Shown here: piece by piece, positions 10,883-20,039 of the stretch | How positions within the stretch are numbered: position 1 is the stretch's first letter | How the letters are laid out: the number at the start of each line of letters is the position of its first letter | NCBI RefSeq assembly: GCF_000687145.1 | Contig: NZ_JMFG01000022.1 | Location: 1-50,215, forward strand | Direction: 5' to 3' | DNA: 50,215 nt | Source of the DNA: Thermoanaerobaculum aquaticum | Lineage (GTDB): Bacteria > Acidobacteriota > Thermoanaerobaculia > Thermoanaerobaculales > Thermoanaerobaculaceae | Translations under genes and position numbers: made by a program | Notes under the pieces: model-generated | Databases searched by the model: none | What the model was told of the DNA's origin: nothing | The model's input: only the letters and a program-made list of their open reading frames with translations

Positions 10883-12445
10883 GTGAAAGAGCGATCGAGG
10901 TACTGGCTTGTGGCGGGGCTCCTGGCCCTAGCGTTCGATAGGCTCTTTTGGAACGTTGACCACGGCATCAACTTTCCCCTCTTTGCCGTTCTTTGCGTAG
11001 CTGGGGGGTTCTTGGTGCTTGGAAAGGAGGGCCACCGGCCGGCCCCCTCGGTGTTTCTCCTGGTCCTGCCGTTGGGGTTTTTCGCCTGGGGGTCGTTCTG
11101 TAGGCTGGAACCGCTGGCGCATGTGCTGAGCTGTGCCTGGGTTTTGCTTTTCATGGGCCTCCTGGCCGTGTACTACCGGACAAGCGAATGGTGGCGGACG
11201 GACGTCTGGCAAACCCTGTGGTCCTTCTTGAAGTTGCTGACCACCGCCGTGGCTCACGGCTTCATTTACCGATCCCCTAACCCATCGCCGGGGCAAGGCG
11301 AGCCGGCACCCAAACCGGGCTGGATAGCGCCGGTGGTGCGCGGCCTGCTGGTGGCGCTGCCGGTAACAGGCCTTTTTGCTTTGCTCCTTGCACGAGCCGA
11401 TGCGGTTTTTGCCCGGTATCTCGCTTCATGGTTTTCCTTCCGGGCTCTGGCGGAAGCGGTTTTTCGCTTGAGCTACATGCTGTTTGGGGCGTACCTGCTG
11501 GTGGGTGTCTTTACCTTCGTGGCCCGGGAAACCGAAAAAGAGCCAGCCCAAAGCCGGCAGCATGGGACCGTTTCTTCGTTCCTCGGGGGAATCGAGGCCA
11601 ACGTGGTGCTGGCCGCGGTGGATGTGCTGTTTTCCTTCTTCGTGCTTATTCAGGTTCGCTATTTCTTTGCGGGCAAGGCTAACCTGGAGGAGCTCGGGCT
11701 CACCTATTCCGAGTACGCCCGTCGCGGGTTTGGCGAGCTGCTGGCTGTGGCCTTCTTGAGTTTGGTGCTGATCCTGGGCTTGCAAAGGTCCACCGAGCAG
11801 CAAAGCGCACGCGGGCAGCGCCTGTTTTTAGCGCTTTCGGTGCTGCTGGTTTTGCTGGTGGGCGTGATCCTGCTTTCGGCCTTCCAGCGCCTGGGCCTTT
11901 ACGAGGAAGCTTACGGTTTTACCCGTGCCCGGCTTTACGCTCACACCCTCATGGTGTGGATTGGGGTGGCGTTGGGAGCAGTGCTGGCGCTGGAGCTGGC
12001 CAAGGCCAGGCGGTGGGTGGTTCACGGTTTGCTGCTTTCGGCCGTTGGTTTTTCCGCCCATCTCGTGGCCTCCAGCGTTGACGCCCGGGTAGCCAGGGCC
12101 AACGTGGCGAGGTTTGCTTCCGGGGCCAACTTGGACGTGGCTTACCTGGCGTACCTTTCCTCCGACGCCGTTCCCGCTATGAGCCGTTTGTTCCAGGATC
12201 CCCGCCTGCCCCAGAGCAGCCGGGAAGCGCTGGGAGCCTCGCTTATCTGCTGGACCTGGCGTCACCGGAACTGGAACGCCCCGGCACCCTGGCAGGAGTT
12301 CCACCTCTCCCGCTGGCGTGCCCGGCGGGCCCTGGCCGCGGTGATGCCTTCGCTTGCGGGCTACCAGAAGGAGGAGACCTCAGAAGGGAAAACCGTCCGC
12401 ACCCCCTCCGGGCAGACCTTCAGCTGCATCGCAGCTTGCCGGTAG
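10883..12445 (+). CDS. DUF4173/DUF4153 family integral membrane protein
   Basis: 520 residues with about 11-12 hydrophobic segments. The stretch LGLTYSEYARRGFGELLAVA (about 275-295) is the hallmark of DUF4173. The C-terminal 130 residues are soluble, with a Trp-rich helical segment (LICWTWRHRNWNA). GTG 10883 is preceded by GCGGAGGAG. Function of the family is unknown; it probably sits in the inner membrane. It follows the MFS gene by 78 bases and is convergent with the aminotransferase fusion (20-base gap). No terminator was seen in that gap. Confidence 0.85.
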   Translation: MKERSRYWLVAGLLALAFDRLFWNVDHGINFPLFAVLCVAGGFLVLGKEGHRPAPSVFLLVLPLGFFAWGSFCRLEPLAHVLSCAWVLLFMGLLAVYYRTSEWWRTDVWQTLWSFLKLLTTAVAHGFIYRSPNPSPGQGEPAPKPGWIAPVVRGLLVALPVTGLFALLLARADAVFARYLASWFSFRALAEAVFRLSYMLFGAYLLVGVFTFVARETEKEPAQSRQHGTVSSFLGGIEANVVLAAVDVLFSFFVLIQVRYFFAGKANLEELGLTYSEYARRGFGELLAVAFLSLVLILGLQRSTEQQSARGQRLFLALSVLLVLLVGVILLSAFQRLGLYEEAYGFTRARLYAHTLMVWIGVALGAVLALELAKARRWVVHGLLLSAVGFSAHLVASSVDARVARANVARFASGANLDVAYLAYLSSDAVPAMSRLFQDPRLPQSSREALGASLICWTWRHRNWNAPAPWQEFHLSRWRARRALAAVMPSLAGYQKEETSEGKTVRTPSGQTFSCIAACR

Positions 12446-12465: not shown

Positions 12466-14775
12466 CTACGCCAGAAGAGCCAAAAGCTGCTGGGCCGCGG
12501 CCTCCGGGGAAAGATCCGCGGGGAGAAGGAAGCTCTTCACCTGCGACAGCAGCCGGGCATACTGCGCCCGCATGCGCTGCTCCTGCTCCGCGGCCAACGG
12601 CGGCAGGTGCGGGTTCAAATAGGGACGGGCAGCTCCTACCTGCCCCGGCAAGCTGCCGCTGGCCAAAAGCCGCAGGGCGTCCTCGGGCGAGAGGGGGCGT
12701 GGCCTGGCGGTCAAGGGGTCCTTGGCCAGGAAAACCACCGCTGCCGCTTCCGCCTGACGGGTCCCCCCTAGCCAGAACGGATCCAGCATCATCCGACCCT
12801 TAGCCGAGGCCTCCAGGCACACGGGAGCACCCAAATCCAGGGGGCAATCGCGCTCACCGTGGTCCACGGTGCAAAGCGCGCGCTCGGTGGCCATGTTTTC
12901 CAGCTTGGCGCGATCAAAAAACCGGCTCAGCGTGGGCAGGTGCCTGGTCCATTTTGCTTTCAGGTAGAGCTTCCGCTCAAGGCCGTCCAGCACCGTGGCC
13001 CGCGGCCCAAAGCGCACCAGAACCCCGTCGGCGGCCAAAAGCCGCCCCCCGTGCTCCCGCAGGAGCTGCGCCAAAAGGGCCGTCCGGCCACTCCCCGGTG
13101 CGCCAAAAACCAGAACGCCCCTTTCACCCAGAGCCACCGCTGCCCCGTGGGCCCAGAGGGCCCCCTGGGTGCGGGCCACCACTTCCGCCGCTAAAAGCAA
13201 CGCCATTTCCCGGGTTTGGCCGTAAAAAGCGGTGTTCCAAACAAAACCCGTGTCGGTGGCAAAGCTCACCGCTGCCGAGGGCTCCCTCCCCGGGGCCTCT
13301 TTAACCGCGTAGACCACAGCGTGGGGCTCGGGCCCCCCTTCCAGGGGAGAAGGCCAGAAGTTCTCCTGAAAGAAGTCCGCCAGATGCGGGGAGTTGGTGC
13401 GCAGCTGCACCACCACTCCACCCACCAATGCGTTCCAGACGAACAGGCTATCCGCCGGCAGGGAGCGCTCCGCTTCCTCCAGGAGCGCGTTGCGTTCGGC
13501 AAGCTCGCGGATGGGACGGACGGGCAGGTAGTCGTTGACCTTGGTGATGACGTTGTTGAGCACCCGCGGCCTGGTCCGCTTGGGTTCCTCCAGCTTGGCT
13601 AAAGCATCGCTCAAGCGTTTCAGCCCCTCGCGGATGCGCTCCTCGGAGGTGGCAAAGGAAATGCGGATGTGCTCCGGGGCCATGAACGCATCCCCCGGAA
13701 CCACCGCCAGCTTGGCCTCTTTCAGCAGATAGTAGGCAAGGCCGTAGGTGTTGCGCACCGGAGAGCCGGAAAACTCCTTGTCCAAAAAGCGGCTGACGTT
13801 GGGCATGGCGTAAAACGCCCCTTCCGGAACCGGGCAAGAAAGACCGGGGATGCGCGACAGACCCTGAATCACCAGGTTGCGCCGCCGCTCAAACTCCACC
13901 CGCATACGCTCCACCTCCAGCTCGCACTCCTCCAGCGCCACCACCCCGGCTTTTTGCACGAAAGAGGTGGCGTTGGAGGTGTTGTGCGACTGGATCTTGG
14001 AGGCGGCGGCAATAATCTCCCGGGGACCAGCGGCGTAGCCCAGGCGCCAGCCGGTCATGGAAAAGGCCTTGGAAAACCCGTTGATGATGACGGTCTGTTT
14101 GGCCAGCGCCGGCACTGCGGCGGCAATGGAGGTAAAGCGGCGCCCGTCGTAAATAAGCTTTTCGTAAATTTCGTCGGCGATGACCCAAATCCCTTCCCTC
14201 CGGCAAATCTCGCCGATTTCCTCCAGCTCCTCGCGGGTGTACACGGCGCCGGTGGGGTTGCAGGGGTAGTTGAGGATCAAAACCCTGGTGTTGGGGGTGA
14301 TGGCCTCCGCCAGGTCCCGGGCCCTAAGGTGGAAGCCATCCTCTTCCCGGGTGCGCACGAACACGGGGTTGCCCTTGGCCAAACGCACCTGGTCGGGGTA
14401 GGAAACCCAGCAAGGGCTGGGGATGATGACGTCGTCCCCTTCGTCCACCAGGGCCATGACCACGCAAAAGAGCGCGGCTTTCGCCCCCGGGGACACCAGC
14501 ACCTCGTCGGGGGAAAAGCGCAGGCCGTTTTCCCGTTCCAGCTTGCGGCAAATGGCCTGACGCAGCTCAGGAATGCCGTCGTTGGCGGTGTACTTGGTGA
14601 AGTTGGCATCCAGCGCCTGCTTGGCCGCCTTCTTGATCTTTTCAGGTGTGGGGAAATCCGGTTCACCCACCGAAAAATCCACCACGTCAATGCCTTGGGC
14701 CTTCATGGCCAGGGCCCGGGCGGCAATGCGCATGGTGGGGGAAAGCTGAATTTGGTTCGCGCGCTCCGAGGGCAT
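12466..14775 (-). CDS. Fusion: class I aminotransferase + HPr-kinase-like P-loop domain
   Basis: 769 residues in one open frame. Residues 1-about 395 are a complete fold-type I aminotransferase of the aspartate/aromatic class: DFSVGEPDF at the N-terminus, NPTGAVY, and the PLP-binding Lys236 in NGFSKAFSMTGWRLGY. Residues about 410-769 are a separate domain with HAHGAA-like WAHGAAVALGERGVLVFGA, Walker A GAPGSGRT (558-565) and LLAADGVLV where HPr-kinase/PEPCK-like proteins have a LLSDD-type acidic motif. The second acid is Gly here. HDC-type helices close the C-terminus. ATG 14775 follows the flotillin stop by 15 bases, so the two form an operon. A lone aminotransferase is about 400 residues, so the extra 370 are a genuine extension. 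I know of no described protein with this pairing; its role is not known. Confidence 0.88.
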   Translation of the reverse strand: MPSERANQIQLSPTMRIAARALAMKAQGIDVVDFSVGEPDFPTPEKIKKAAKQALDANFTKYTANDGIPELRQAICRKLERENGLRFSPDEVLVSPGAKAALFCVVMALVDEGDDVIIPSPCWVSYPDQVRLAKGNPVFVRTREEDGFHLRARDLAEAITPNTRVLILNYPCNPTGAVYTREELEEIGEICRREGIWVIADEIYEKLIYDGRRFTSIAAAVPALAKQTVIINGFSKAFSMTGWRLGYAAGPREIIAAASKIQSHNTSNATSFVQKAGVVALEECELEVERMRVEFERRRNLVIQGLSRIPGLSCPVPEGAFYAMPNVSRFLDKEFSGSPVRNTYGLAYYLLKEAKLAVVPGDAFMAPEHIRISFATSEERIREGLKRLSDALAKLEEPKRTRPRVLNNVITKVNDYLPVRPIRELAERNALLEEAERSLPADSLFVWNALVGGVVVQLRTNSPHLADFFQENFWPSPLEGGPEPHAVVYAVKEAPGREPSAAVSFATDTGFVWNTAFYGQTREMALLLAAEVVARTQGALWAHGAAVALGERGVLVFGAPGSGRTALLAQLLREHGGRLLAADGVLVRFGPRATVLDGLERKLYLKAKWTRHLPTLSRFFDRAKLENMATERALCTVDHGERDCPLDLGAPVCLEASAKGRMMLDPFWLGGTRQAEAAAVVFLAKDPLTARPRPLSPEDALRLLASGSLPGQVGAARPYLNPHLPPLAAEQEQRMRAQYARLLSQVKSFLLPADLSPEAAAQQLLALLA

Positions 14776-14790
14776 GGTACGTCTTTTCCC

Positions 14791-16176
14791 TTACGAGTCC
14801 TTCTCTTCTTTTGGCGCGGTTTTTTGCGCCAAAAAGTCGGCAAGCTTCACACCGGTGAGCGATTCCACCACAGTGGGCAGCTGGGCCAACACCTCGGCCA
14901 CCTGACCGGTGAGCTTGCTGGTACCGGAAGCATCCCCCACCATGACGATGCGGTCCACCTTGGACAGCGGCTCGGCCACCGCCCGGGCCAGCTCCGGCAG
15001 CTTTTGAATGACCATCTCGGCCAAAGCGGCCTGGGTGTAGTCCCGCCACGCCGCGGCCTTTTCCCGCATGGCTTCGGCTTCGGCTTTTCCCTGCTCCCGC
15101 AACGCTTCCGCGCGCACCTGGGCTTCCAGCCGCAGGCCCGCGGCTCGCCCCTTGGCTTCCAGTTCCTTGCGGTAGGCTTCGGCTTCCGCCTCCAGCTTGG
15201 CGCGGTAGGCTTCCGCTTCCGCCGGCCGCTTGACGGTGGCGTCCAGGTGCTTTTCACGCAGGGCAATTTCCTGCTCCTCCAGCTTGGTGGCCAGCTCCTT
15301 TTCCACCAGCTTGATTTGGTACTCCTGGCGCTTCACCTGCTCCAAAAGCTTGGCCCGCTCCAGCTCGTAGGCCAGCTCCGCTTGCGCTCGCTTGGCGTTC
15401 ACCGCCGCCTGGAACTCCGCCCGCTGGATTTCAAAATCCCGGGTGGCTGCCGCCAGTTCGGCTTCCGCAGCCAGCCGCGCCACGTCCCCTTCCTTGCGGT
15501 ACTGGGCGGCACGGATGGTGGCGTCGCGCTCGGTTTCCGCCTGGGCAATGGCCGCATCGCGCTTGACCTCGGCAATGCGGCGGGCCCCCAAAGCCTCAAG
15601 GTAGCCCTGGCTGTCGGTGATGTCCTTCAGGGAAAAGGCCAGGAGCTCCAGGCCCAGGCGGTCAAAATCCGCCTGCGCGGCGCTGCGCACCCGTTCGGCA
15701 AAGCGGTCGCGCTGGGAGTAAATTTCCTCCACCGCCATGGTCCCCAGGGCTGCGCGCATGTGCCCTTCCAGAACCTCCTGGGCCACGGCAGCAATGCCTG
15801 CAGTGCCTCGGGAAAGGAAGTTCTCCACCGCCCGGTGCAGCCGTCGCTCGTCGGAAGACACCTTGACCTGACCAAAGGCTTCCGCGGCAATGATCACCCC
15901 ATGGGCGGTGAGGACCTCGGGACAGCGGATGGAAACGGAAATGACGTCCAGGGGCAAAACCTGCACCGATTCCAAAAGCGGCATCACAAAGGTCCCGCCC
16001 CCCACCTGCAGGCGGTAGCCCACCCTGCGCCTTCGCCCATCGGGCTCGATGACGGTGGATGTGCGGCCGGAGATGACCAGCACCTGGTTGGGACCTACCT
16101 TGCGGTAATTGAAGGCCCAGAGCGCAAAGGCCAAAACCACAACGAAAACGCCAATAGCCCACGGGAGGAACGCCAT
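14791..16176 (-). CDS. Flotillin-like SPFH-domain protein
   Basis: 461 residues. One N-terminal membrane helix (MAFLPWAIGVFVVVLAFALW) is followed by the SPFH/PHB domain (about 30-200; YRKVGPNQVLVISGR, DVISVSIRCPEVLTAHG) and a long Ala/Glu-rich coiled coil (about 200-400) with EAEAYR repeats, as in FloT/YuaG. Flotillins organise membrane microdomains and scaffold signalling or secretion complexes. ATG 16176 is chosen because GGAGGG lies 8 bases upstream and the membrane helix begins there; the frame runs 17 codons further back but without signals. It is first in an operon with the aminotransferase-kinase fusion, and divergent from an intact patatin gene. Confidence 0.93.
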   Translation of the reverse strand: MAFLPWAIGVFVVVLAFALWAFNYRKVGPNQVLVISGRTSTVIEPDGRRRRVGYRLQVGGGTFVMPLLESVQVLPLDVISVSIRCPEVLTAHGVIIAAEAFGQVKVSSDERRLHRAVENFLSRGTAGIAAVAQEVLEGHMRAALGTMAVEEIYSQRDRFAERVRSAAQADFDRLGLELLAFSLKDITDSQGYLEALGARRIAEVKRDAAIAQAETERDATIRAAQYRKEGDVARLAAEAELAAATRDFEIQRAEFQAAVNAKRAQAELAYELERAKLLEQVKRQEYQIKLVEKELATKLEEQEIALREKHLDATVKRPAEAEAYRAKLEAEAEAYRKELEAKGRAAGLRLEAQVRAEALREQGKAEAEAMREKAAAWRDYTQAALAEMVIQKLPELARAVAEPLSKVDRIVMVGDASGTSKLTGQVAEVLAQLPTVVESLTGVKLADFLAQKTAPKEEKDS

Positions 16177-16215
16177 GAGACCCTCCGTTCCCGGCCAGCC
16201 GCCGGGGTCTTGCTC

Positions 16216-16244
16216 ACGATACGACAAGTTCTTTGTCGGTACAA
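16216..16244 (-). promoter_or_regulatory. Flotillin promoter with inverted repeat filling its spacer
   Basis: On the minus strand: TTGTAC (16244-16239), 17 bases, TATCGT (16221-16216). The 17-base spacer is exactly a perfect inverted repeat, CGACAA-N5-TTGTCG (16222-16238). That is the classical position for a repressor operator or a MerR-type activator site. Predicted start near 16209, leaving a 33-base leader with a GGAGGG ribosome-binding site. Confidence 0.6.
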
Positions 16245-16299
16245 GGTCCCAAAGGCTATCAAGCGAGCGCCACCCCGCGCGTTTCTGGCATTGCTGCGC

Positions 16300-16305
16300 T
16301 AGTAT
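16300..16305 (+). promoter_or_regulatory. -10 box TAGTAT before the patatin gene
   Basis: TAGTAT followed by eight bases and GTG 16314. No Shine-Dalgarno sequence lies between. This suggests a leaderless or near-leaderless transcript, and supports the GTG over the further-upstream in-frame TTG at 16233. Confidence 0.5.
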
Positions 16306-16313
16306 TTCAGCCT

Positions 16314-17225
16314 GTGGGTTTTCTGGATTTCCTGTTCCGCCGCGGTCCCCGCCAGGGTGTGGTGCTGGCGTTGGGAGGGGGCGGGGCTCGGGGCCTGGCC
16401 CACTTGGGGGTTTTAGAGGTCATTGAAGAGGCGGGTATCCCGGTGGCGGGTATCGCCGGAACCAGCGCGGGCGCGGTGGTGGGGGCCATGTGGCTCACCC
16501 TGGGAAACACCCAAGAGGTCGTCAAGCGGTGGGAGGAGTTTCTGGCTTCCGACTTCCCCTCGCACCTGCCCGAGGTGCGGCTCACCGAGGAGGTTTCCAG
16601 CCGCGATAACCTGCTTCTGTCCTTTGCCCAGCGCCTCCAGCAGGGGGCACAGGTGGCCCTGGCGCTGCACCGACGGGGGTTGGTGGAGCATGAAGACCTG
16701 GAGCGCGCGGTGGCGTTCTTGATCCCCCAAGCGAGGATCGAATCCCTGCCCCAACCGTTTGCGGCGGTGGTCACCGATTTTGCCACCGGCAAGGCTGTGG
16801 CCTTAACCCGGGGGGATCTGCGGCAGGCAGTGGCAGCTTCTTCTGCAGTCCCCGGAGTGGTGCCTCCCTATGGCCTGGACGGCCGCTACGTGCTGGACGG
16901 CGGGGTGGTGGCGGAGGTGCCGGTGGAGGAAGCCCGGGGCCTGGTCCCACGACCGGTGGTGGCGGTGGACGTGGGCGATCTCCCCGATCCTGACGAAGAC
17001 CCCAGGCGCATCACGGTGCCCCGGGTGCTCATGCGCGCCAACGTCATGACCCACGCCCGCCTCCGGCAGGTGCTGGTGGCTTCCGCGGACCTGGTGATCC
17101 GCCCGGAGGTTTGGGGCATGCACTGGTCGGAGTTCCGTCGGCTTACCGAAGCGGTGGAGGCTGGAAGAAAGGCGGCGCGTTCCTGCCTTAACCGCCTGCG
17201 GGCCCTGGCTCTGCGACGGGCTTGA
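16314..17225 (+). CDS. Patatin-like phospholipase (RssA/NTE-like), catalytically intact
   Basis: 303 residues. All patatin elements are present: oxyanion glycines LALGGGGARGLAHLGV, nucleophile elbow GTSAG, AASSAVPGVVPP, and the catalytic Asp in YVLDGGVVAEVPV. It hydrolyses acyl esters of phospholipids or lysophospholipids at the inner face of the membrane. No signal peptide. GTG 16314 is preferred because of the TAGTAT box upstream. The last codons overlap the region of the thioesterase ribosome-binding site (GGAGG at 17230), so the pair is probably one operon for acyl-chain turnover. It contrasts with the degenerate patatin-like gene at 6472-7305. Confidence 0.93.
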   Translation: MGFLDFLFRRGPRQGVVLALGGGGARGLAHLGVLEVIEEAGIPVAGIAGTSAGAVVGAMWLTLGNTQEVVKRWEEFLASDFPSHLPEVRLTEEVSSRDNLLLSFAQRLQQGAQVALALHRRGLVEHEDLERAVAFLIPQARIESLPQPFAAVVTDFATGKAVALTRGDLRQAVAASSAVPGVVPPYGLDGRYVLDGGVVAEVPVEEARGLVPRPVVAVDVGDLPDPDEDPRRITVPRVLMRANVMTHARLRQVLVASADLVIRPEVWGMHWSEFRRLTEAVEAGRKAARSCLNRLRALALRRA

Positions 17226-17741: not shown

Positions 17742-19985
17742 CTAAATGAACAGCGGCGCCAAAACCAGGGTGATGGTGGAAAGCAGCTTGATGAGCACGT
17801 GCAGAGAAGGACCCGCGGTGTCCTTGAACGGATCCCCCACCGTATCGCCCACCACGGCTGCACCGTGGGTGGGGTTTTTCATGCGCTTGCCGTCGGGGGT
17901 CATGAGGTATTTGCCACCGTGGGCCCCGGTTTCAATGAACTTCTTGGCGTTGTCCCAGGCGCCACCGGCGTTGTTCAAGAACAGCGCCACCAGGATGCCG
18001 CCAATGGTGCCCACCATGAGAAGGCCTGCTACCGCTTCCGCGGAAATCAGCGGGTCATCGGGGCGGATGAAGATGCGGAACACCACGCCCACCGCCACCG
18101 GCATGAGCACCACCAGAAGCCCCGGAGCCACCATGCGCTTCAGCGCGGCCTTGGTGACGATGTCCACGCAGGAGCCGTAGTCGGGCTTGAAGTTGGGCGG
18201 AAACACGATGATGTCGTTTTCCCGGGGGAGGTTGGCGTACTGGCGGCGAACCTCCTCAATGATGGACTGGGCCGCCTTCCCCACCGCGCGAATGGCCAAC
18301 GCCGAGAACAGGAACACCAGCATGGCGCCCAAAAGGGCCCCCACGAACACCACCGGTTTGGCCAGGTTCACCACAAAGGGCGCCGACTCCCCCAAACCGG
18401 CGTAGTTCTTCACCTCGTCCATGTACGCCTGGAACAGCAAGAACGCCGCCAACCCTGCCGAGCCAATGGCGTAGCCCTTGGTAAGCGCCTTGGTGGTGTT
18501 GCCCACGGCGTCCAGGCGGTCGGTCTTGCGCCGCACTTCCTCGGGTTGCTGGGACATCTCCACGATGCCGCCGGCGTTGTCGGTAATGGGACCGAAGGTG
18601 TCCATGGCCAGGATGTAAGCCGCGGTGGCCAGCATGCCCATGGTGGCCACAGCGGTGCCGAAAAGACCGGCGTGGGGAAGGCCGGAGGTCTCACCCAACC
18701 AGTAGGAAGCCAGAAGCGCCGCACCCATAACCACCGCCGGCATCCAGGTGCACTCGAAGCCCACGCCCACACCGGCAATGATGTTGGTGGCCGGTCCGGT
18801 GGTGGACGCCTCCGCAATGGACTGCACGGGACGGTAGCGGTACTCGGTGTAGTACTGGGTGATGTACACGAAGGCCACCGAGGTCAAAACCCCAATGACA
18901 CCGCAGAGGAAGAAGTGCCACCAGGCGTTTGGCGCGGCCGGGCTGGAAAGAAGCCAGTAGGTGGCACCGGCAAAGCCAGCCATGGCCAGAGCCACCGCCA
19001 GGTAGTACCCGCGGTTTAAGGCCTCCATGGGGTCCATGCGCTCTTCCTTGTCCATCTTCACCGCCAGAATGCCAATCACCGAAGCCAGGATTCCAAAGGC
19101 GCGGGCCACCAGGGGGAACATCATCACCCCCACCACTCCCATGGAAAACTCAATGCCCTGCTTCTGGGCGGCCGCCGCCAGGGAGGCACCCAGGATCATG
19201 GCGCCGATGTTTTCGGCCGCGGTGGACTCAAAAAGGTCGGCACCACGACCGGCGCAGTCCCCCACGTTGTCGCCCACCAGATCGGCAATCACCGCCGGGT
19301 TTCGGGGGTCGTCCTCGGGAATACCGGCCTCCACCTTGCCCACCAGGTCAGCGCCCACATCGGCAGCTTTGGTGTAAATCCCGCCCCCCAGCTGGGCAAA
19401 AAGAGCCACAAAGGAAGCGCCAAAGCCATAACCCACAATCAACAGCGGCACCTTGGTGGGTTCCACACCGCCCACGGTGGAAACCAGCGCGTAAAGACCG
19501 GCCACACCCAAAAGCGACATGGCCACCACCAGAAGCCCGGAAACCGCCCCACCCCGGAGGGCAATGCGCAGGGCCTCGTTGAGGCTGGAAAGAGCGGCGG
19601 TGGCGGTGCGGATGTTGGAGCGGATGGAAACCCACATCCCCACGTAGCCAGCAAACACCGAGCACAGCGCCCCGAAGATGAACGAGAGGGCAATCCACAG
19701 CGCCAGCTGCAGCGAGCTCCCCACCGGATCAAACTCCCGCGACTGGCGCACAAAGCCGTAGCCAATGAACAAAACCGCGGCAAAGACCGCAGCCAACAGC
19801 AGGATCGTGCGGTTTTGCCGGCGCAGGAAGGCCTCCGCACCTTCCTTGATGGCGTTGGAGATGCGCTGCATCGCCTCGGACCCGGTGTCCTTGGCCATCA
19901 CCCAGCGCACCAGGTAATAGGCCACCAAAAGGCCAAAAAGCGAAAAACCAATCACCAAAGAGATCAAAAGAGCACTTCCAGCCAT
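17742..19985 (-). CDS. hppA: Membrane-bound proton-pumping pyrophosphatase, K+-independent type
   Basis: 747 residues, about 16 membrane helices. The hydrolytic centre is in DVGADLVGKVEAGIPEDDPR and DLVGDNVGDCAGRGADLFE, with the matching C-terminal GDTVGDPFKDTAGPSLH. GNTTKALTKG (Lys499) carries Lys where K+-dependent enzymes carry Ala, which places it in the K+-independent, H+-pumping group. It couples PPi hydrolysis to proton export at the inner membrane and so saves energy from biosynthetic PPi. ATG 19985 has GGGAGGGAAGG upstream; 14 further codons upstream in frame lack signals. It has its own TATAAT promoter and is followed by a hairpin. Confidence 0.97.
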   Translation of the reverse strand: MAGSALLISLVIGFSLFGLLVAYYLVRWVMAKDTGSEAMQRISNAIKEGAEAFLRRQNRTILLLAAVFAAVLFIGYGFVRQSREFDPVGSSLQLALWIALSFIFGALCSVFAGYVGMWVSIRSNIRTATAALSSLNEALRIALRGGAVSGLLVVAMSLLGVAGLYALVSTVGGVEPTKVPLLIVGYGFGASFVALFAQLGGGIYTKAADVGADLVGKVEAGIPEDDPRNPAVIADLVGDNVGDCAGRGADLFESTAAENIGAMILGASLAAAAQKQGIEFSMGVVGVMMFPLVARAFGILASVIGILAVKMDKEERMDPMEALNRGYYLAVALAMAGFAGATYWLLSSPAAPNAWWHFFLCGVIGVLTSVAFVYITQYYTEYRYRPVQSIAEASTTGPATNIIAGVGVGFECTWMPAVVMGAALLASYWLGETSGLPHAGLFGTAVATMGMLATAAYILAMDTFGPITDNAGGIVEMSQQPEEVRRKTDRLDAVGNTTKALTKGYAIGSAGLAAFLLFQAYMDEVKNYAGLGESAPFVVNLAKPVVFVGALLGAMLVFLFSALAIRAVGKAAQSIIEEVRRQYANLPRENDIIVFPPNFKPDYGSCVDIVTKAALKRMVAPGLLVVLMPVAVGVVFRIFIRPDDPLISAEAVAGLLMVGTIGGILVALFLNNAGGAWDNAKKFIETGAHGGKYLMTPDGKRMKNPTHGAAVVGDTVGDPFKDTAGPSLHVLIKLLSTITLVLAPLFI

Positions 19986-20039
19986 GCCTTCCCTCCCCGG
20001 CAACCGAGCCCTTGGGCCTCGGTGCAAAAATTCTGGGGG

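Follow-up and report, generated by a model that had tools for sequence, protein, structure and literature searches.

We analyzed a window of 50,215 nucleotides from Thermoanaerobaculum aquaticum (contig NZ_JMFG01000022.1), in which a gene for an aspartate-type aminotransferase fused to a second large domain lies directly downstream of a flotillin gene on the same strand (Table 1). As the initial annotation had proposed, one uninterrupted frame joins the aminotransferase to the second domain; it runs on the minus strand from an ATG at 14775 to a stop at 12466-12468, with zero internal stops. Because full-length fused orthologues with 43-89% identity occur in many genomes, this frame is far beyond chance. 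The flotillin and fusion genes are separated by 15 nt and form a two-gene unit, since the gene downstream of the fusion is convergent and the gene upstream of the flotillin is divergent. Promoter and terminator scans gave no signal above shuffled sequences. The partner gene had been taken to encode a membrane-microdomain scaffold, and the domain searches agreed, with both Band_7 (102.8 bits) and Flot (32.0 bits against a cut-off of 27) above cut-off; with the FloT equivalog model (NF058507) the protein scored 334 bits and did not reach the cut-off of 700. The true start of the flotillin is probably further in than that of the annotated frame, as the orthologues align from about residue 13-25.

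Table 1. Features of the fusion locus in the window, with residue numbers of the fusion protein
Feature	Position	Strand	Basis
Fusion gene, aspartate-type aminotransferase and PEPCK-fold domain, 769 aa	12466..14775	-	Open frame and relatives
N-terminal class I (Ib-type) aspartate aminotransferase domain, residues 1-395	13591..14775	-	PF00155
PLP lysine K236	14068..14070	-	Invariant, 57/57
C-terminal PEPCK-fold domain, residues 400-769	12469..13578	-	AlphaFold2 model, fold match, profile-profile match
Degenerate P-loop GAPGSGRT, residues 558-565, Lys replaced with Arg in this clade	13081..13104	-	K 29, R 26 of 57
D583, equivalent of PEPCK D269 (D268 equivalent A582)	13027..13029	-	Asp/Glu 57/57
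E600-R601-K602, with R601 and K602 invariant, at the canonical PEPCK Gly-Gly	12970..12978	-	Profile alignments through the divergent PEPCK
Cysteine cluster C635, H639 (Cys in most relatives), C644, C653, possible metal site	12817..12873	-	
Intergenic gap, 15 nt, purine-rich GGGAAAAG, ribosome-binding-site-like, ahead of the fusion ATG	14776..14790	-	
Flotillin (SPFH) gene, operon partner	14791..16227	-	Band_7 2.8e-29, Flot 1.5e-7; orthologue alignments
DUF4153 gene, downstream of the fusion, convergent	10883-12445	+	
Patatin-like phospholipase gene, upstream, divergent from flotillin	16233-17225	+	PF01734
Membrane H+-pyrophosphatase, neighbouring gene	17742-20027	-	PF03030, 848 bits

Residues 30-388 of the fusion protein match Aminotran_1_2 (PF00155; 1.1e-78, 265 bits), and the best solved relatives of this half are aspartate aminotransferase B (6f35, 1.2e-106) and 1j32 (1e-104). 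In an alignment of 57 fusion-family sequences, on which all residue counts given here are based, the PLP lysine assigned earlier, K236, is invariant together with K99, N173, D201, Y204, and R387; the K99 equivalent presumably binds the side-chain carboxylate of the substrate. We infer that aspartate and oxaloacetate form the substrate pair, with prephenate as a possible alternative substrate.

The second domain had been annotated as an HPr-kinase (HPrK)-like P-loop domain, which our results did not support. Sequence searches of the C-terminal half gave weak matches to HPrK, HprK-related proteins, and PEPCK, those around the P-loop being to HprK_rel_A (2e-5) and, with a profile, to HPrK 1ko7 (6.6e-4), and the PF07475 (HPrK) score of 13.5 bits did not reach the Pfam cut-off of 33.3. 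A profile was required to detect relatives among PDB sequences, single-sequence phmmer with the C-terminal half alone returning non-significant, unrelated matches only, mostly to AAA ATPases. An AlphaFold2 model of the domain, built from a 57-row alignment, had a mean pLDDT of 93.6, and all Foldseek matches listed for it (50 best) were PEPCKs, with a best E value of 1e-15. VIA-align matched 339 of 373 residues to the ATP-PEPCK of T. thermophilus with a Z score of 28.2 at 3.0 A, and profile-profile comparison gave E values of 2e-11 (global) and 2e-9 (local) against canonical ATP-PEPCKs and 3e-7 against a divergent PEPCK described below. The structure prediction and Foldseek search suggested for residues 400-769 yielded a nearly complete ATP-PEPCK fold; identity as an HPrK-like kinase is superseded by the PEPCK fold across the whole domain. 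HPrK and PEPCK have been grouped in one superfamily or kinase group (PMC1079889), and the first reading is explained by this true but distant kinship. In a model of the full-length fusion (pTM 0.55), the relative orientation of the two domains is uncertain. Neither Pfam nor NCBIfam holds the C-terminal half as a described extension of aminotransferases, which removes one way in which the annotation could have been overturned, and no curated family matched the whole protein, in line with the initial annotation, which knew of no described protein with this architecture. A literature search with partial coverage, including few subscription journals, likewise found no description of a fusion of an aminotransferase with PEPCK, or with HPrK and flotillin.

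Residue equivalences to E. coli PEPCK were derived from profile alignments, and on that basis the active site appears altered at several positions. The GAPGSGRT motif is present at the residues originally assigned, and its Walker A lysine (E. coli K254) is an arginine, R564, in T. aquaticum; the position is Lys or Arg in 55/57 sequences. The T255 equivalent, T565, is Thr or Ser in 41/57, leaving 16/57 with a P-loop that contains neither. At the position of the Mn-ligand lysine K213 stands Glu523, which is Ser in 40/57 and Lys in 4/57. The double Asp after Walker A is incomplete (A582-D583), with Asp at the position of A582, the D268 equivalent, in only four of the 57, and the HMMER alignment pairs the fusion segment rlvsnDlv with RLVADDNV of HPrK. 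It is therefore the first acid of the DD motif that is missing and not, as had been stated, the second. The equivalent of H232, His543, is Arg in 33/57 and His in 21/57, whereas that of K212, R522, is Arg in 56/57; in the poorly aligned region of R65 (R-loop), the global profile alignment shows no Arg-Ser-Pro motif. K244 and K290 of rat PCK1 are taken here as the counterparts of K213 and K254 in the E. coli enzyme. Acetylation of the Mn-binding K244, or of K290, leaves the rat enzyme about 1% of its activity (PMC7948413).

Unlike the P-loop, which is only moderately conserved, thirteen other positions are invariant in the 57 sequences (W447, N448, Q457, H464, Y518, R588, R601, K602, E626, N627, C653, D665, and W668). 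The cysteine cluster is of the type C-x4-5-C-x4-C-x8-C in most relatives, including L111, with the second Cys changed to His in the T. aquaticum clade and two Cys lost in several Zixibacteria; as at least four Cys are present in only 37/57 sequences, a metal site was rejected as a family-wide feature. The earlier suggestion of a nucleotide binder that is not a normal kinase held in that the nucleotide site looks abnormal (A582, R564). Judging from the charge kept at residues 564, 583, and 522, binding of a ligand, or even of a nucleotide, may survive.

We scanned the genomes of 84,980 species with the C-terminal half only as the query, found 162 encoding stretches, and analyzed the 80 with the best scores. 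These 80 loci span ten or more phyla and were labelled Acidobacteriota, Aminicenantes, Eisenbacteria, Planctomycetota, Zixibacteria, Latescibacterota, Gemmatimonadota, KSB1, Calditrichaceae, Myxococcales, Ignavibacteriales, and others. The domain is fused at every locus that is not cut by a contig end, in frames of approximately 770-865 residues that begin with the aminotransferase. No stop separates the two domains in any complete locus, the opposite of what the initial annotation had named as grounds for abandoning its reading, and a sequencing or assembly artefact was rejected because dozens of independent genomes show the same fusion. One contig labelled as a Thermoplasmatota archaeon (L132) carries the C-terminal half at its edge and is likely a mis-binned bacterial contig. 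Eleven whole genomes of other lineages, from several phyla, encode one copy each, always fused, with no stand-alone C-terminal domain. On a Gemmatimonadota chromosome (L144), another gene, of 395 residues and assigned to the sequence cluster of the fusion, lies a few genes from it on the opposite strand. The search of Acidobacteriota proposed earlier recovered the full-length two-domain protein in 23 of 199 genomes, and it is present in most genomes of the same family; additional weak matches in the phylum (E values of 2e-5 to 3e-4) are to distinct, shorter proteins, with the similarity lying around the P-loop. In a tree of the aminotransferase half, all 58 fused rows group in a single clade (100/100), outside which lie the 13 stand-alone enzymes of Acidobacteriota, so that, within this tree sample, the fusion appears to have arisen once.

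The flotillin neighbour is persistent as well. Among the best 80 of the 162 loci, 70 have at least 1 kb of upstream sequence, and in 68 of these a flotillin gene lies directly upstream on the same strand; in one of the two exceptions it is about 1 kb away, and in the other only 1.5 kb of upstream sequence is available. A comparison of gene positions placed flotillin next to the fusion in all 23 Acidobacteriota genomes that carry it, the conserved synteny that the initial annotation had proposed to look for. Related genomes are included in these counts, which therefore do not number independent events, and most of the genomes are draft metagenome bins. Other neighbours, except PEPCK and nucleoside diphosphate kinase (NDK) genes, vary between lineages. 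One family (f39) is informative, because its genome G134 has both flotillin and fusion, whereas G101 and G124 have an unfused aminotransferase (59-61% identical) that ends at the domain boundary and gave no flotillin match, their only SPFH proteins being of 260-aa or 340-375-aa types. The G101 aminotransferase nests inside the fused clade as the sister of L099, the G134 protein (100/97), and the PEPCK half thus appears to have been secondarily lost in G101. As G101 and G124 lack both the PEPCK half and the flotillin and yet keep the aminotransferase, flotillin goes with the PEPCK-like half and not with the aminotransferase; this joint absence comes from one family of draft genomes, and of the two genomes G101 alone was placed in the tree. 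In G101, a proline dehydrogenase gene follows the unfused aminotransferase gene by 56 nt on the same strand (L211, G101:C66, 5889-8032), which suggests a context of amino-acid catabolism for that enzyme.

Separate PEPCK genes often accompany the fusion. A PEPCK gene is found within 6 kb in 37 and an NDK gene in 16 of the best 80 loci, and most fusion genomes checked carry another PEPCK, either GTP-type or a divergent ATP-type. In many genomes, including that of T. aquaticum, the separate PEPCK is not adjacent to the fusion. The divergent enzyme occurs in 9/10 fusion genomes against 4/89 others (Fisher p 4e-9), belongs to the PEPCK family, and is often encoded in the gene cluster of the fusion. 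It scored 273 bits with NCBIfam PRK09344.1-3 (cut-off 369), was only partly matched by Pfam, and is the only PF01293 protein in several genomes. In contrast to the fusion domain, its KK, His, GLSATGKS, DD, and Arg motifs are intact, and the divergent PEPCK is for this reason probably active; it is possibly a distinct PEPCK subfamily. Examples of about 615-620 aa are encoded at G000:C8:194635-195336 (locus L160) and L130:11591-13444. With a divergent ATP-type or a GTP-type PEPCK elsewhere, the fusion was rejected as the sole PEPCK in most genomes checked. One Eisenbacteria chromosome (G242, L100) has the fusion and gave no match to the ATP- or GTP-type PEPCK Pfam families. Given the replacements at several catalytic positions, and a genuine PEPCK that in most cases has its own gene, we class the C-terminal domain as a PEPCK homologue rather than a PEPCK; it would have lost PEPCK activity and is probably an altered form of the enzyme or a pseudo-PEPCK.

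Aspartate aminotransferases interconvert aspartate and 2-oxoglutarate with oxaloacetate and glutamate, and oxaloacetate is the substrate of PEPCK. Reading the second domain as PEPCK-like therefore gives the fusion a biochemical logic that the HPrK reading did not have. That an aspartate aminotransferase and a PEPCK fold are combined in one protein and conserved with flotillin is, in our judgment, nearly certain. For the function, we propose that the N-terminal half would act as an aspartate aminotransferase yielding oxaloacetate, while the PEPCK half, with its fold and basic pocket kept and several canonical metal- and nucleotide-site residues lost, would bind oxaloacetate, PEP, a nucleotide, or a related anion as a regulatory, sensor, or docking module. 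Through the same half, the aminotransferase would be attached at the membrane to the flotillin scaffold, its co-transcribed partner, and the oxaloacetate would be passed on in the direction of the genuine PEPCK, whether the gene for that enzyme is a neighbour or lies elsewhere. The ligand of the pocket, the physical contact with flotillin, and the channelling are all conjectural, and docking in particular is argued from guilt by association. Taken as a whole, the proposal that the PEPCK-fold half binds oxaloacetate, PEP, or nucleotide and docks the aspartate aminotransferase on flotillin, with a link to gluconeogenesis through the separate PEPCK, has in our estimate about an even chance. Its more elaborate form, a membrane-anchored aspartate-oxaloacetate-PEP metabolon in ten or more phyla, in which the pseudo-PEPCK is an adaptor on a dedicated flotillin that senses oxaloacetate or channels it to the real PEPCK, is less likely than not.

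Several other explanations were weighed against this proposal. The fusion could be a bifunctional enzyme whose N-terminal half makes oxaloacetate and whose C-terminal half converts it to PEP within one polypeptide. The product of one half being the substrate of the other, the complete PEPCK fold, the preservation of the basic P-loop residue, of D583, and of R522 in almost all relatives, and the nearby PEPCK and NDK genes that mark the same metabolic neighbourhood would all suit such an enzyme; we nevertheless regard it as improbable, because the Mn-ligand lysine is replaced (Ser in most, Glu here), the first Asp of the DD pair is lost, the H232 equivalent is mostly Arg, the P-loop often lacks Thr/Ser, the segment after E. 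coli residue 464 is absent, and most fusion genomes checked have another ATP- or GTP-type PEPCK. Somewhat less doubtful, though still unlikely, is that the PEPCK-fold half catalyzes a new reaction. Its substrate would be oxaloacetate or some other anion, the reaction could be a decarboxylation or could phosphorylate a different metabolite, and the invariant residues listed above other than C653 would carry it out. Their invariance beside a moderately conserved P-loop, and the invariant Arg-Lys pair that profile alignment places at the PEPCK Gly-Gly, speak for this idea, whereas some of these residues may have a structural role, the genes around the fusion included none from a matching pathway, and we know of no enzyme with this residue set.

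An HPr-kinase-like protein or metabolite kinase is very hard to credit: the weak matches around the P-loop that favour it are set against a PEPCK fold over the whole domain, the missed Pfam HPrK cut-off, a first catalytic Asp absent in most relatives, and a degenerate Walker A. Adjacency by itself never proves interaction, and flotillin and the fusion might merely be co-transcribed without any physical or functional link. We consider this quite unlikely, as the adjacency is kept in nearly all loci with upstream sequence across the phyla while other neighbours differ by lineage, and as the PEPCK half and flotillin are absent together in G101 and G124.

Bacterial flotillins have, to our knowledge, been studied as general membrane organizers with poorly defined dedicated clients. 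Here a single flotillin type is paired with a single metabolic enzyme in at least ten phyla, so that what this flotillin scaffolds can be tested directly, and the metabolon, if true, would provide a bacterial flotillin with a dedicated metabolic client encoded in its own operon. The fusion offers a natural way to connect nitrogen metabolism, through aspartate, with gluconeogenesis, through PEP. It also represents a family of altered PEPCKs in which residues other than the catalytic ones are conserved. It has been invisible to annotation, the curated libraries searched detecting only the aminotransferase. These features point to an undescribed membrane-organized step in carbon and nitrogen metabolism.

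Each part of the system resembles a known one. Class Ib aspartate aminotransferases such as S. meliloti AatB (6f35) and the Phormidium enzyme (1j32) share the full catalytic set and length of the N-terminal half (~1e-106); they are normally single-domain enzymes, and the fusion bears a PEPCK-fold extension of 370 residues. With ATP-PEPCKs (PF01293; T. thermophilus 2pc9/1j3b and E. coli PckA), the C-terminal domain shares the whole fold and the ENV and N-T-G-like regions, whereas it is only 17-20% identical, is fused to an aminotransferase, and lacks about the last 75 residues, the structural match stopping at E. coli residue 464 of 540. The same P-loop superfamily includes HPr kinase/phosphorylase and HprK-related kinases (PF07475, TIGR04352, and TIGR04355), which match locally at the P-loop; the domain falls under every curated cut-off for these families and is larger, with a PEPCK N-terminal subdomain. 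The flotillin has in common with bacterial FloT and FloA the SPFH (Band_7) and Flot domains and a hydrophobic N-terminal segment, and it differs from them in scoring under the FloT equivalog cut-off and in having the fusion as its partner gene.
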